A model generated the notes under the pieces. The model did not search any database. It was given only the letters and a program-made list of their open reading frames with translations, and was not told the DNA's origin. Positions 23,738 to 30,405 of a DNA stretch of 32,257 bases are shown piece by piece. The stretch spans positions 1 to 32,257 of the forward strand of contig JALTAZ010000129.1 in NCBI GenBank assembly GCA_027075555.1, written 5' to 3'. The translations under genes were made by a program, and so were the position numbers. The stretch is from Micavibrio sp. Its GTDB lineage: Bacteria; Pseudomonadota; Alphaproteobacteria; Micavibrionales; Micavibrionaceae. Positions within the stretch are counted from its first letter, which is position 1. Every line of letters starts with the position of its first letter.

Positions 23738-23820
23738 AGCATTATTTTTAAATTTATCGCTTGGCATTTTATCATTCTTGCTGTTAGATTGTATTCATAA
23801 TCAATAACTAGAAAATGCGT

Positions 23821-23849
23821 TTAAAATCAATCGTTTGTATTGATTTTAA
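23821..23849. promoter_or_regulatory. perfect 11-bp inverted repeat upstream of gcrA
   Basis: TTAAAATCAAT-cgtttgt-ATTGATTTTAA, ending 31 bp before ATG 23881. Confidence 0.7.
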
Positions 23850-23880
23850 CCCGTATTTATTTCAAGGCTGGAGGGAATTA

Positions 23881-24453
23881 ATGAGCTGGACTGATGAACG
23901 CGTATCTCTGTTAACTAAGCTTTGGGGAGAGGGGCATACTGCTGCTGAAATTGCGAAAAAGCTTGGTGGTGTGACTAGAAATGCAGTAATTGGTAAGGCG
24001 CATCGTTTAAAGTTGTCTAGTCGTATATCTCCTATTCAGCAAAATAAAAAGCCTGCAAATAAGAATGTTGATAGAAAGGCTAAGAATAAGGCTTCTGTTT
24101 TGCCTTCTGATTCAGCTCCTATTCAGGTTTTGGCTGTAGAAAAGGAAAAGGAAAAGCCTAAGATTTCTAAGGTCGTTTCAGTGCCTAAAGACGAAGTAAA
24201 AAAAGATGGTCTTTATAATCTAATGGATTTAAAGCCACGTATGTGTCGTTGGCCATGTGGTGATCCAAAACATGAAGATTTCGGTTTTTGTGGAGGTAAC
24301 TCTATGCCCGGACTTCCATATTGTGAAGATCATGCGCGTATAGCTTATCAGGCTGCTACTCGTAATCGTATATTTAATACAGATAAAGAGGTGAAAAAGA
24401 TTAGGGAGCAGTTAGAGGCATTTGAGGAAACTAAGAAAGTTGCCTCTAATTAG
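23881..24453 (+). CDS. gcrA: GcrA cell-cycle regulator
   Basis: 'MSWTDERVSLLTKLWGEGHTAAEIAKKLGGVTRNAVIGKAHRLKLSSR' and C-terminal 'CRWPCGDPKHEDFGFCGG..PGLPYCEDHARIAYQ'; ggaggg upstream of ATG 23881. Confidence 0.96.
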   Translation: MSWTDERVSLLTKLWGEGHTAAEIAKKLGGVTRNAVIGKAHRLKLSSRISPIQQNKKPANKNVDRKAKNKASVLPSDSAPIQVLAVEKEKEKPKISKVVSVPKDEVKKDGLYNLMDLKPRMCRWPCGDPKHEDFGFCGGNSMPGLPYCEDHARIAYQAATRNRIFNTDKEVKKIREQLEAFEETKKVASN

Positions 24454-24678: not shown

Positions 24679-25968
24679 TCATTGTACTTCACAATTATTG
24701 CTTGTATCACAGCAATAAATGTTGCCTTGGTTTGAAAAGCCTCTTAAATATGATGTATTTCCATTTGAAAGAGCCACGCATTGTTTGGCGCTGTTCCAGC
24801 TCCATGTAACAGGTCTACATTCAATCTGGTTATTTCCTATGGCATATGCTACTTCGCCAGAAGGGCATGGCGGAACGCTATTACCTCCAATAAATTCAGG
24901 ATCAACACAATCTGTTCCGGCCTGATTACAAAAAGATGCATTTCCTGATATTGCAGCTTTTTCTGCTTCTATACTGCCCATAACGTGGAGTTTTTCTGAA
25001 GGTGTATCTGTACCTATACCCACATTTCCTAGATTTGTATTATATATATAGGACTCACCTACGGGGCTGGTTATTTGGCGTTTCCAAAGCGGAGTCATAC
25101 CCGTTGCAATATATACTAATATATCATCATTATAAAAATCATTGTCACCAAGAGATCGTATTCCTTGTTCAAAAATGGCATCATTATTATCACAGTTTTC
25201 AATTTCAAGTTTTATTCCTGCTACTGTAATTGGACCAGGGGCTGGTGGAGCTGGTGGAGCACTACCAAGGGAAACCATACAATTACCATTTCTATCTCCG
25301 GAAATAGAATATCCGCCAAGTCTGTTTTCTCCATGTGAGAAAACTACAAAATGAGCAGATGCATCGGGTATGGTAACGCTACGACGGTTTTCATCTTCTA
25401 CTCTTATTGCCCCTGTCTTTGGGTTTACAGGATTTGCAAGACTATGAATATTTGTATTTGTCATATGTTCAGTTACAGCATAGCTAAATAGTGATCCATA
25501 ACCGTCGACTCTGTGATATTCTCTAAATGGGGTATCAACAACACCGTCAGTTAATGTTTTGAAGGGAATAACACCGATCATAACAACATCCTGCGCGCCA
25601 TTATCATCGCCATCTCTGCTTCCTACAGTGGTGCAGGTAATATTGAGAGGGACATTGCTACAGTTATCAGGGTCAAAAGATCCTGATACATAATCACGGC
25701 ATTGTGCAACCCCGTAATTTGCATCATTGGGACTTAATGTTGGGTCTGCTGGGCATGGATAAACTCCATTCAATCCTACATATTCCTGTAGGGCTGTTTT
25801 TACCATTTCAATATTTTCATTGGTCTTTATAAATTCGCTATCAATTGTGTATTGCTTTACAAAATTTGCAACAATCATCATTATAAAACCGGATATAAGC
25901 AAGACTATTGCTATCTCTACAAGGGTAAAGCCTTTATTAGATGATATTACTTTTTTAAAGCTATACAT
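24679..25968 (-). CDS. prepilin-like surface protein (N-methylation motif, VGIGT motif, Cys modules)
   Basis: 'NKGFTLVEIAIVLLISGFIMMIVANF' type IV prepilin signal; 'YPCPA', 'VGIGTDTPSEKLHVMGSIEAEKA'; paralogous to the next two. Confidence 0.85.
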   Translation of the reverse strand: MYSFKKVISSNKGFTLVEIAIVLLISGFIMMIVANFVKQYTIDSEFIKTNENIEMVKTALQEYVGLNGVYPCPADPTLSPNDANYGVAQCRDYVSGSFDPDNCSNVPLNITCTTVGSRDGDDNGAQDVVMIGVIPFKTLTDGVVDTPFREYHRVDGYGSLFSYAVTEHMTNTNIHSLANPVNPKTGAIRVEDENRRSVTIPDASAHFVVFSHGENRLGGYSISGDRNGNCMVSLGSAPPAPPAPGPITVAGIKLEIENCDNNDAIFEQGIRSLGDNDFYNDDILVYIATGMTPLWKRQITSPVGESYIYNTNLGNVGIGTDTPSEKLHVMGSIEAEKAAISGNASFCNQAGTDCVDPEFIGGNSVPPCPSGEVAYAIGNNQIECRPVTWSWNSAKQCVALSNGNTSYLRGFSNQGNIYCCDTSNNCEVQ

Positions 25969-25983
25969 AAATTTTCCCTTATT

Positions 25984-28470
25984 TTAATTATCTTGTACTA
26001 CGCACGGGCAACCACTCCAAATGCTGTATTTTGCGCCAGCAAATGCATGACATAAAGTCGCAGGAGGTGATCCGCATGAACATGTATCACCTTTGGGAAC
26101 TCCATAAGCGAAATCTTCAAGGGTTGGAGATCCAGTTGGTGCCTGCCATGCACAGCTATCGCAGTTATTGGCGATAAGATCCCATTCTGATTGTGGTTCC
26201 CAGTCGCCTAGCCCGCCATTTAATGTACAATCCCATTCTTTTTTATAAATAATCCCTGAACCTTGCTGACCAGTAGGGCATGATAAAGTTACATTTTCTG
26301 TTAGTGAAGAGTCACAGGTACATGCAGGGATTGGGCTATATGGCGTTGGGCTTCCCCAGCTTCCAGGATCAGGAAGACCTCCTGTGCTTGTTCCAGGGCA
26401 TACCCAATCTTGAGTGCTAAGAGTTGCCACTCCTGTTTCGTTTCCTCCTGTCCAGCTCCAGCTATTTGTAAGACCTGTTGGGCAATAAGTTCTGTTAACA
26501 ATTTGAGACTTACTTGGACATGCACACTGAGACGTATCTATATTGCTTGGGGTCGTATCTGTAACAGGAACTCCTGAAACACAGTTGATGTCAAATGTTT
26601 TTATAACTGTTCCAGTTAAACCTGTTGTTCCCGAAGTTCCATTAACTTCGTCATAATAAGAGTTACAGCTTTGGTTAATTGTCGTTGTACCAGAAGCACA
26701 TGCACAAAATGCATCGGAGGTTAATATATTTGTCCATTGGTGGCTGGTTTGGGGGCAGGTATGTTTTTCTATGATTATTCTATTTCCTGATAACCCACCA
26801 GGGCAACTTGTTACGCGGGCTCTATAATCTTCACGACACCAGCAATCATGGTTATATTGATTATTATTGGGATCAGTAGTTGAGTCATTCCAAGTTTCCG
26901 CAGGCCAAGGTGATGATCCTGATACAGGATTACTTGGATATGATGACCAAGGGTGATTTTTTTCATGAGCTCTGACCGAGTTAGTGCTAAAAGTTCCGTT
27001 TGTGCACAGCCACGCATCGCGAACTTGCGAATCTGCTGGACTGGTATCACAATTGACAATTGTTCTTGGCTGTAAATTGATTAAATTTATAATAGATTTT
27101 ATTTGATTTGGGTTAGTTAATACCGAAATAATCGACGAAAAATATGAAGCGTCATAATTTGTAATTTTACGACATTCCCCGGTATATGTAGTTGCATACG
27201 CACCATCAATAGCAGCAGGAACATTAACTGTATCGCCGCATGTTGCTGTTCTTGTTGTTGAATCACAGCTCGCTCCGGGAAGGGTTGCACATACAATATT
27301 TCCATTATCAATTTCGCTTATAAATTGGTTGTCCGCACAAGTTACAAAAATCTCATCAGAACAAACAAGATCGTTATTTTCTATTGCTACCATATAATCA
27401 CCAGAAGATGAATTATTACAGCTCATTCCTGTTCCAGTCGTTGTTACAATACACTGATCCGATCCACCACTACAATCAAGAGTTCCTGCTATTAGCTCAG
27501 GTCTAAAGCAATTTCCTGTGCTTTCATCACATATTTGCTCAGAATAAAAATTCTGAGATGATCTAATTATACCTGATCTTGATGTTGATCCTACGGTCTT
27601 AACTAACGCAGCTTCTTCGCCGGCAAGATTATCGGTTATATTGGCGCCAATAGCTGAGCTATTGGTATTTTTCAGGGTAATGGCCTCTGCTTGAGCTTCT
27701 GATTCCTGCCATTCTGATTCTTGTACTGGGCTAAAGAAATTTATTCGGTCATCAAATGTTATTGCATCGTAATCACCAGAGGCAAAAACAGTATCAGCAT
27801 CACAATTTTCCTGTTCGGCAAGTGATCCTAATGTACAATTTTCAGAAATTATTCCAGCTCTTGTATAGGCTCCATATTTATTTTTACCATGAGAAATAAT
27901 AACAAAATGGGCACTATTGGGGGGAGAAACTAATGATTGTGCAGGATTATTCTTGTCAACAATATTGATTCCACCCCCATTAGAGTTATATGTCGTATTG
28001 CTTGTTAAGGGTAGCGTTACGGCATAAGTTATCCTACTTAGTGAAGAATCATAAGCTTGTTTTTCTGTAAGATTAAGTATCTTAAAGGGTACAGTTCCAA
28101 CAAGAATATTTACCCCTGATCCATTTGAATAAGTGCAAATACCACCAGAGCATGTTCCAGGGGCAGGAGCGCTTGTCTGGCAATTGCTTAGCTCATGACC
28201 ATAATCAATATCCCCAGGGACAGCGGTCACTGACGCGGGGCATGGGTATCTTCCATAAACATTGCGAAAGCCACCAATAGCAAATTTAATATCATCAATA
28301 TTATATTCGGTTTCATTCCAGTCTTTATTTACGCGATATTGATGATACATCTGGATAGCCGGCGTCATAATAAGCCCGACTAGCAACAATACAAGAGCAA
28401 TTTCAATAAGGGTAAAACCCGATTGATGTTCATTGCTTATTAATGTCATTTCTTTCCCTATGGCGCGCAT
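25984..28470 (-). CDS. large prepilin-like protein with C-terminal Cys-rich repeats (828 aa)
   Basis: 'QSGFTLIEIALVLLLVGLIMTPAIQMY' prepilin signal; 'YPCPA', 'SHGKNKYGAYT'; C-terminal CxC...CPxG...C repeats. Confidence 0.85.
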   Translation of the reverse strand: MRAIGKEMTLISNEHQSGFTLIEIALVLLLVGLIMTPAIQMYHQYRVNKDWNETEYNIDDIKFAIGGFRNVYGRYPCPASVTAVPGDIDYGHELSNCQTSAPAPGTCSGGICTYSNGSGVNILVGTVPFKILNLTEKQAYDSSLSRITYAVTLPLTSNTTYNSNGGGINIVDKNNPAQSLVSPPNSAHFVIISHGKNKYGAYTRAGIISENCTLGSLAEQENCDADTVFASGDYDAITFDDRINFFSPVQESEWQESEAQAEAITLKNTNSSAIGANITDNLAGEEAALVKTVGSTSRSGIIRSSQNFYSEQICDESTGNCFRPELIAGTLDCSGGSDQCIVTTTGTGMSCNNSSSGDYMVAIENNDLVCSDEIFVTCADNQFISEIDNGNIVCATLPGASCDSTTRTATCGDTVNVPAAIDGAYATTYTGECRKITNYDASYFSSIISVLTNPNQIKSIINLINLQPRTIVNCDTSPADSQVRDAWLCTNGTFSTNSVRAHEKNHPWSSYPSNPVSGSSPWPAETWNDSTTDPNNNQYNHDCWCREDYRARVTSCPGGLSGNRIIIEKHTCPQTSHQWTNILTSDAFCACASGTTTINQSCNSYYDEVNGTSGTTGLTGTVIKTFDINCVSGVPVTDTTPSNIDTSQCACPSKSQIVNRTYCPTGLTNSWSWTGGNETGVATLSTQDWVCPGTSTGGLPDPGSWGSPTPYSPIPACTCDSSLTENVTLSCPTGQQGSGIIYKKEWDCTLNGGLGDWEPQSEWDLIANNCDSCAWQAPTGSPTLEDFAYGVPKGDTCSCGSPPATLCHAFAGAKYSIWSGCPCVVQDN

Positions 28471-29732
28471 ATTAAGCCTCCGCTTGCATCAATTCCTATT
28501 GCACTTTTTCCGATTACGGCACAATTTTGATTGCTAAAAGTTGATGATGGTACATCTATTACTTCATCACATGTAACTGCGCTATTACCGATAGCAGTTA
28601 CTACTCTATTTATACTTGTTGAAGTATCTCTACAATCCATGCTTGGTACTGCTGTTGGCGCAGTTATTAAATTTGGAGAAAAACAATCACTTGAATCATT
28701 ACATATATCAGCAGTGATGATATTGCCATCGGGGCTTCCTCCACCTGTTGGTTCTGCTCTTACTGATCCTACTACATCAAGCGCATATTCAGGATTTGCT
28801 GTTCCAATTCCAACTCTAGTAGCTAATGTCATTGCATAGTTCATGCTATTTTCATTTTTAAACCAAGTCGTTATGGGAGGAGCTTCTTGTGCCATGGTCC
28901 AGTCATCGAAATAATTAGCTCCGAATGTATCAGATCTGATAGATGCATCATTATCAGGGTTTTCATCAATGAAAAATACATTGTCAAAATTACAATTTTC
29001 ATATTCATATCCACTTGAAGCATCGCCACAGGTCGTTGTTTCAATTCCATCTTTGGTATAGCCGCCATTACCGTTATATCCTGTAGAAAATATAAAAATG
29101 TCATATAAGCTACTAATTTGGTTTGGAATTCCATCTTCTGCACCCAGAGCAACTAATACGGGATCATCAGCGCCCATAATTCTAATTTGACCGGCATTTG
29201 TTACATATGTAGTGTTGTCGGTCTGAGTTTGTGTAACCGCATATATTAATTTATTACCCCAATAATCTAGAGCTTCTTCTTGTGGCATTCCTAACGTAGC
29301 AAAAGGTATTCCACCAATAATTATCGCATCTGTCCCATTGCTGGTTTTACAAATGCCTTCCGTAGTTTTCCAAGCAGGGTCTGTGCATAATTTTACATTG
29401 GAAATGGTGCAATCTCCAGATACACCAAAATTTGTATCGCCTTCACCAAGAATCAAGCTAGCAGGGCATGGATACGCTCCATTTCCTGCTTCGAAATATT
29501 GATTTATACCATCTATTGAATTTTGAATTGCGCCATAATTGACTTGGCGAATTTTTTTAACGACTTCGTATTTTTGAGCTTGAATAATAGGCATTATAAT
29601 CAACCCTAAAACAATCAAGCCTATGGCTGCCTCAACTAGAGAAAGTCCATCTTCCTTTAAAATTGATTGTTTTATTTTGTTTAATAATACGCCAGAAATA
29701 CCAAAATAATTGGTACTCACCTTATCTTTCAT
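28458..29732 (-). CDS. prepilin-like surface protein with VGIGT motif
   Basis: 'EDGLSLVEAAIGLIVLGLIIMPIIQAQK' prepilin signal after a long leader; 'YPCPA', 'RVGIGTANPEYALDVVGSVRAEP'. Confidence 0.83.
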   Translation of the reverse strand: MKDKVSTNYFGISGVLLNKIKQSILKEDGLSLVEAAIGLIVLGLIIMPIIQAQKYEVVKKIRQVNYGAIQNSIDGINQYFEAGNGAYPCPASLILGEGDTNFGVSGDCTISNVKLCTDPAWKTTEGICKTSNGTDAIIIGGIPFATLGMPQEEALDYWGNKLIYAVTQTQTDNTTYVTNAGQIRIMGADDPVLVALGAEDGIPNQISSLYDIFIFSTGYNGNGGYTKDGIETTTCGDASSGYEYENCNFDNVFFIDENPDNDASIRSDTFGANYFDDWTMAQEAPPITTWFKNENSMNYAMTLATRVGIGTANPEYALDVVGSVRAEPTGGGSPDGNIITADICNDSSDCFSPNLITAPTAVPSMDCRDTSTSINRVVTAIGNSAVTCDEVIDVPSSTFSNQNCAVIGKSAIGIDASGGLICAP

Positions 29733-29892: not shown

Positions 29893-30405
29893 TCAAATAA
29901 TTTTTAGATCTACGGCTTCACGCCCCTTATCTACAATTTTCAGAGTAACTCGCACTCTTTGACCTGCTTCAAGGCCATCCATTTCCAACTTATCTAATAA
30001 CGTCTTATGTATAAAAACATCTTTCATGCCATCATCGGGAATTATGAAACCAAATCCTTTTTCAGGCTTGTACCATTTAACTATCCCCCCCATGGTCACA
30101 GTGCCTGTTTCCTCGTCCATTTCAGGCATAGTGCTTAGATTCCCTTTATCAATTACTTCAACCACTTCCCTTACTTGCCGCCCTTTATCACCATTAAATA
30201 CCTTGCACATTAAAATTGCACCTTCTCCAATTGAGTGAAGACCTGCTTGTTGTAGCGTTGTAATATGCAAAAAGGCATCATAGGATTCATCTTCGGGCAT
30301 AAGAAAACCAAAGCCTTTAGCTCCATTAAACCATTTAAGATGTAATCTATCTAAGGATATATTTTCTTCGGGGGAGGTAGATTCATGAACATTATTTTGC
30401 AACAT
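29893..30405 (-). CDS. cold-shock protein with two cold-shock domains
   Basis: 'LKWFNGAKGFGFLMPEDESYDAFLHITTL' and 'VKWYKPEKGFGFIIPDDGMKDVFIHKTLL'. Confidence 0.94.
   Translation of the reverse strand: MLQNNVHESTSPEENISLDRLHLKWFNGAKGFGFLMPEDESYDAFLHITTLQQAGLHSIGEGAILMCKVFNGDKGRQVREVVEVIDKGNLSTMPEMDEETGTVTMGGIVKWYKPEKGFGFIIPDDGMKDVFIHKTLLDKLEMDGLEAGQRVRVTLKIVDKGREAVDLKII

Follow-up and report, generated by a model that had tools for sequence, protein, structure and literature searches.

Three tandem modular prepilins with a shared distal part, candidate minor pilins of a type IV pilus in Micavibrionales

The Micavibrio sp. DNA analysed here (32,257 nucleotides of contig JALTAZ010000129.1, assembly GCA_027075555.1; hereafter the window) contains three consecutive genes, A, B and C, that read as type IV prepilins with long C-terminal parts. 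The locus raises the question of which filament these proteins enter and what their distal parts contribute to it. The window itself holds no pilus machinery, as the initial annotation had stated. Comparison with the rest of the genome and with relatives in the order, here given its GTDB name, Micavibrionales, suggests that A, B and C are minor pilins of a type IV pilus encoded elsewhere in the genome.

Prepilin core and distal modules of the trio

The description of the locus as three consecutive minus-strand prepilin-type paralogs is borne out by coordinates, leaders and homology. The ORFs lie head to tail (Table 1), and the 13-bp overlap of A with B and the 15-bp gap between B and C make a single operon likely. 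Direct reading and alignment identify in each protein a class III leader with Gly-1 and Glu5, continuing into a hydrophobic helix, and BLASTP relates all three pairs (A/B, E=1e-30; A/C, E=5e-20; B/C, E=3e-30) at 26-31% identity. At the level of sequence, A, B and C are thus confirmed as tandem homologous type IV prepilins, and the core motifs reported as common to them are present at the positions given for them. Prepilin models, proposed as a check, recognize two of the three: the N_methyl/GFxxxE models of Pfam and NCBIfam match B and C, and A, which has no match to the prepilin models of either collection at E<=1, is recognized by direct reading and alignment only.

Table 1. Positions in the window of the three prepilin genes and of their predicted parts
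Feature	Coordinates	Strand	Residues	Details
Gene A, short minor prepilin	28458..29732	minus	424 aa	G^LSLVE; core profile E=2.2e-28
A, PCPA pilin core	28893..29648	minus	29-280	core-profile alignment limits
A, GIGTxxPxxxLxVxG capping-loop module	28749..28814	minus	307-328	motif and profile
A, distal Cys modules up to C-terminus	28461..28724	minus		
Gene B, long minor prepilin	25984..28470	minus	828 aa	42 Cys; G^FTLIE; core profile E=1.5e-37
B, PCPA pilin core	27724..28419	minus	18-249	core-profile alignment limits
B, distal Cys modules common to A and C	27277..27552	minus	307-398	A/C distal profile 1.6e-10
B, Cys-rich extension	25987..27276	minus	430 aa	28 Cys; no Pfam match; kept in orthologues
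Gene C, short minor prepilin	24679..25968	minus	429 aa	G^FTLVE; core profile E=4.3e-33
C, PCPA pilin core	25105..25932	minus	13-288	core-profile alignment limits; AF2 pLDDT mostly >90 at about 20-220
C, GIGTxxPxxxLxVxG capping-loop module	24958..25023	minus	316-337	motif and profile
C, distal Cys modules up to C-terminus	24682..24948	minus		

The AF2 models of B and C agree with each other and with the architecture of type IV prepilins, in line with the shared fold that had been anticipated: a long alpha1 helix (residues 21-72 in B, 16-67 in C) is followed by a beta-rich head consisting mainly of strands. Foldseek found no significant fold match in the PDB for either model, a null result that says nothing about the fibre part, because the distal segment of C is modelled with low confidence. 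The only results of Pfam, NCBIfam and PHROG scans of the trio were the pilin motif at the N-terminus and weak matches of tail-fibre type.

A profile made from 47 short pilins of groups other than Micavibrionales covers nearly its entire length in A, B and C (E from 2e-28 to 1e-37), by which measure their pilin part is a member of an unnamed family, here called PCPA. Elsewhere, in beta- and gammaproteobacteria, Magnetococcales and other alphaproteobacteria, the PCPA proteins are short minor pilins, homologous to the core of the trio over its full length, and several of their loci adjoin KGQELIENAK-type pilins and MshE-like ATPases. Unlike the trio, these proteins, mostly of 200-350 aa, terminate soon after the core, in the DD...W region (...FDD[IL]V.W.SP...LP), and none of their few longer members has the GIGT module; the Micavibrionales proteins continue.

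The continuation comprises a GIGT module and distal Cys modules. The VGIGT motif reported for A and C is present in both; no recognizable GIGT motif occurs in the B protein of the window, and profile searches detect the module in several B orthologues. The profile, built partly from 14 of the family sequences counted here, matches 49 of the 61 family proteins, certain B orthologues and fragments included, and, at E<0.01, none of 62 PCPA members outside the order. In a class-wide alphaproteobacterial sample, a profile of the distal part matches 3 of 289 genomes, all within the taxonomic family of the window. Since the cores found elsewhere end early and both profiles are so restricted, it appears that this lineage extended an older minor pilin by the distal part. 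The final Cys module (C...G[FI].x.G...C) ends both A and C, and in B it precedes the 430-aa extension; simple divergence, as reported, is thus not a full account of the C-termini of A and C.

Searched against the PDB, the GIGT profile matches Bdellovibrio Bd2133 (8ond) at 7e-13, other MAT fibres at about 6e-5 and MYRF weakly; the same stretch also matches phage tail-fibre families. Capping loops of trimeric beta-helices, shared with S74 phage fibres, are formed in MAT proteins by a motif of this kind (V-G-G/N-pi-X-X-P-X-X-X-L; PMC10769870); in the form VG[G/N]xxxPxxxL it is found in A and C. The likeness is limited to this element, for MAT proteins are not pilins, whereas the trio has a pilin N-terminus in place of the MAT N-terminal domain, a single copy of the motif, no S74 domain in Pfam, and Cys-rich distal modules instead of any solved MAT tip. 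In the monomer AF2 model of C, pLDDT falls below 50 at residues 313-345, which include the GIGT segment; this would fit an obligate trimer rather than demonstrate one.

A pilus operon associated with the trio

The genome search that had been proposed located PilB (MshEN-type), PilC, a prepilin peptidase, two PilT-type ATPases, a secretin and a KGQEMI-type major pilin on another contig (C123). The genome thus possesses both the prepilin peptidase and the assembly machinery that type IV prepilins require. The same operon encodes an ABC transporter, a TPR protein and proteins in the PilM/N and PilO positions, labelled by position only, as they have no Pfam match. An ABC ATPase, a permease, a 245-aa protein and an AraC-type regulator lie inside the operon (L104/L105; L139-L143) and are kept in a sister family (f3); they are reminiscent of pilGHI of Myxococcus.

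Two observations associate the trio with this operon. In the family of the window the trio lies away from the pilus operon, and in the sister family f3 trio-type genes adjoin, or sit within a few kb of, the operon for the major pilin, AraC, secretin, PilT and PilD (L139-L143). Furthermore, among 95 genomes the trio family and the C123-type secretin occur together in 81 and are both missing from 12; none has the secretin only, and the two with the family only, in which no C123-type secretin was detected, are both incomplete assemblies (Fisher 1.7e-13, which overstates independence because relatives share ancestry). Together with the homology of the three proteins and the presence of a type IV pilus operon, this linkage and co-loss support the initial annotation in regarding the trio as a minor-pilin set made by duplication.

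Searches of the whole genome found only four GFxxxE-type pilins, namely the major pilin and the trio. A search of the genome for PilY1 gave no match, a weak negative given that control genomes yielded almost no positives, and no HIJK-like tip gene was found in it. From the four pilins and the missing PilY1, the C123 pilus probably has no minor pilins other than the trio.

Both the C123-type secretin and the trio have been lost in G047, G049, family f2 and most of family f7, many of which keep a second type IV filament-like locus. In the genome of the window this locus is on contig C133 (L106:4088-14493) and encodes a secretin, an ASH/HYDIN Ig-like protein, a GspE-type ATPase, a weak T2SSF protein, a short A24 peptidase and two pilin-like ORFs (250 and 245 aa), neither of which has a Pfam or NCBIfam match; it is widespread in the order, independently of the trio.

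A possible trimeric tip and its alternatives

The explanation that we consider likely is that A, B and C are modular minor pilins of the C123 pilus and form its trimeric, probably adhesive, tip. As inner-membrane prepilins they would be cut by the C123 prepilin peptidase, their hydrophobic alpha1 helices would be inserted into the filament that the MshEN-type PilB and PilC assemble, and the filament would pass through the C123 secretin and be retracted by the two PilT-type ATPases. An ancestor in this order would have added to a PCPA pilin head a distal part consisting of a fibre-type trimerizing beta segment with the GIGT capping loop, followed by disulphide-rich modules, to which B adds its further 430-aa Cys-rich extension. 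A, B and C would then cap the pilus as a fibre-like trimer that binds a surface, possibly that of another cell.

Each element of this proposal has its own basis. Bulky C-terminal parts suit the tip of a filament, and by this analogy A, B and C most likely cap the pilus; the GIGT motif points to a trimer; the modular architecture, together with the trimeric-fibre motif, suggests adhesion; and the ligand may be carried by another cell. That each protein joins a pilin part to added Cys-rich parts, with tail-fibre-like ones in at least two, and that the three-gene set is retained in an order with predatory members, points to a sticky tip built into the pilus. Against a tip location stands the presence of Glu5 in all three proteins, as the capping subunit of HIJK-type tip complexes lacks Glu5 (PMC10191384), a subunit of which the trio has no counterpart.

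Several known systems are comparable. In modular pilins, such as PilB and PilC of S. sanguinis and the wider class, a pilin module carries an extra C-terminal part thought to be exposed at the tip and adhesive (PMC8179133), and S. sanguinis has three minor pilins in place of HIJK (PMC10191384). Like the extra modules of this class, that of the trio is not specific to type IV pilus biology, its capping-loop motif occurring also in MAT and phage fibres and in MYRF. In the trio, by contrast, each member is a homologue of the other two, the same grafted distal part, with neither a Pfam domain nor S74, recurs in all of them, and the set has been retained throughout an order. No database domain signature was found in the extra module, Pfam giving N_methyl only; such a signature was the search criterion of the modular-pilin survey and excludes nothing, CofB-like pilins being treated as modular without one (PMC8179133). 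TcpB and CofB of type IVb pili are large minor pilins with beta-rich C-terminal domains that form a trimer at the pilus tip (PMC9565799), but they are single genes producing homotrimers, as opposed to three paralogues served by MshEN-PilB and PilT machinery; of the TCP and CFA/III pilins, PDB profile searches matched the major ones only, via the N-terminal helix, and neither TcpB nor CofB. GspH/I/J/K and PilH/I/J/K complexes likewise place a small set of different minor pilins or pseudopilins at the expected tip, yet GspH/I/J/K models match the trio at the N-terminus only, below cut-off, and there is no sequence relation beyond it, no member without Glu5 and no PilY1.

Modular pilins, TcpB/CofB tip trimers (PMC9565799), replacement of HIJK by three minor pilins (PMC10191384) and fusions of pilins to S74 tail-fibre peptidase domains, listed in the modular-pilin survey (PMC8179133), are already known. 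The new element is a set of three homologous modular pilins that is found throughout the order, has a fibre-type distal part common to its members and is assigned to a specific pilus; a search of the open literature, outside which most subscription journals fall, found no papers on the pili of Micavibrionales or on minor pilins of tail-fibre type. Proteins for which family models offer no name past the N-terminus thereby receive a functional class and a machine, and a group with epibiotic predators among its members gains candidate genes for attachment by pili. In Micavibrio aeruginosavorus, four pili-related genes, with GMV0902/0903 in their number, have been reported as highly expressed in the attack or attachment phase (PMC3189940). 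If the tip is trimeric, a motif of phage and Bdellovibrio recognition fibres would be linked to a retractable pilus.

An attractive but speculative extension, which we consider unlikely as a whole, is a single A:B:C heterotrimer at the tip of the retractile pilus, a tail-fibre-like spike with which these partly predatory alphaproteobacteria would grip other cells, and which would be convergent with the recognition fibres of phages and Bdellovibrio. The 1:1:1 stoichiometry is suggested by the number of paralogues, each with one beta-segment position, and by the three chains of a beta-helix; clusters of four or five genes, and the lack of a recognizable GIGT motif in the B protein of the window, argue against it.

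Alternatively, A, B and C might be spread along the shaft as accessory minor pilins that alter adhesion or aggregation, without forming a tip complex, as PilV, PilX and ComP of N. meningitidis are distributed (PMC10191384). Conservation of Glu5 in all three, and the relationship of their core to stand-alone short minor pilins, would suit such a location. The bulky C-terminal modules favour the tip, as was argued for PilB (PMC8179133), and the genome offers no HIJK-like or PilY1-like gene to occupy it, leaving the shaft an improbable place for the trio.

Somewhat more doubtful is a role in a type II secretion-like pseudopilus or in pilus-driven secretion, in which the distal parts would handle secreted cargo. 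The best named-family matches of the N-termini are GspG and GspH pseudopilin models, all far below cut-off; a type II secretion system without GspCGHK has been reported in Micavibrio aeruginosavorus, with type IV pilus proteins suggested as substitutes (PMC3189940); and TcpB binds a secreted protein (PMC9565799), TcpB and CofB handling TcpF and CofJ. The C123 operon, however, includes two ATPases of PilT type, and a separate GspE/GspF set was not encountered in the genome, where the five other T2SSE matches over cut-off are the two PilTs, one on contig C28 with two adjoining T2SSF genes, one on C133 and a partial one on C100.

Conservation and age of the three-gene set

The likely tip proteins A, B and C belong to a family detected in 83 of the 95 genomes searched from the order that contains Micavibrio-named MAGs. 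The short-long-short set occurs in the same order in L025-L028 and L030, where the long gene has only 487 aa; in L029 and L031 the first gene is cut at the contig end or the start of the stretch. Exactly one long and two short genes are present in 26 of the 31 clusters with >=3 listed genes, and some clusters hold four or five genes. Certain relatives have two long genes per cluster or two clusters per genome (G016:C29, G057:C16, G011, G023:C72). Four orthologues can be aligned with B from end to end, at 34-47% identity, and in a tree of 57 proteins B forms one clade across families (support 100/98). The duplication that gave rise to B predates the order. The A and C lineages are also old in this tree, in which their split may have occurred more than once; the labels A and C in family f3 denote gene order only, and the tree sets the f3 'A' nearer C. 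The trio is an old operon, usually of two short genes and one long gene, and no local duplication burst; recent local duplication is rejected by the single B clade and the order-wide retention of the set.

The tip diversification proposed by the initial annotation does not agree with this history. Tandem duplication followed by rapid change of the tips, under pressure from prey or phage for example, would account for the different lengths and mutual identity of only 26-31% of A, B and C within one genome. Across genera and families, however, orthologues retain their positions, sizes and distal modules, and the one protein that differs, B, does so by a conserved extension. Identity between orthologues is 36-39% in the distal modules, which have more indels, 34-48% in the linker and 36-47% in the pilin helix and head; the closeness of the distal values to those of the pilin parts argues against hypervariability at this depth. 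Hypervariable tips are rejected at the genus level and above, and diversification as an explanation of the trio is very improbable.

Least probable of all is assembly of the trio by the C133 secretin system or the Tad-like C28 system, which are both present, each with its own A24 peptidase, since the linkage in f3 is to the C123-type operon and, for C133 only, the phyletic pattern rejects the assignment: the C133-type secretin, used as a control, gives strong matches in 8 of the 12 genomes without the trio family, and 29 of those with the family have no strong match to it (p=1.0).

A gene for a double cold-shock-domain protein upstream (29893-30405) and gcrA downstream (23815-24453) flank the trio, and both are syntenic in L025 and L027. 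The closest named relatives of the genome are Micavibrio sp. and alphaproteobacterial MAGs. GcrA is an alphaproteobacterial regulator; the NCBI taxonomy puts the genus Micavibrio under Bdellovibrionota.
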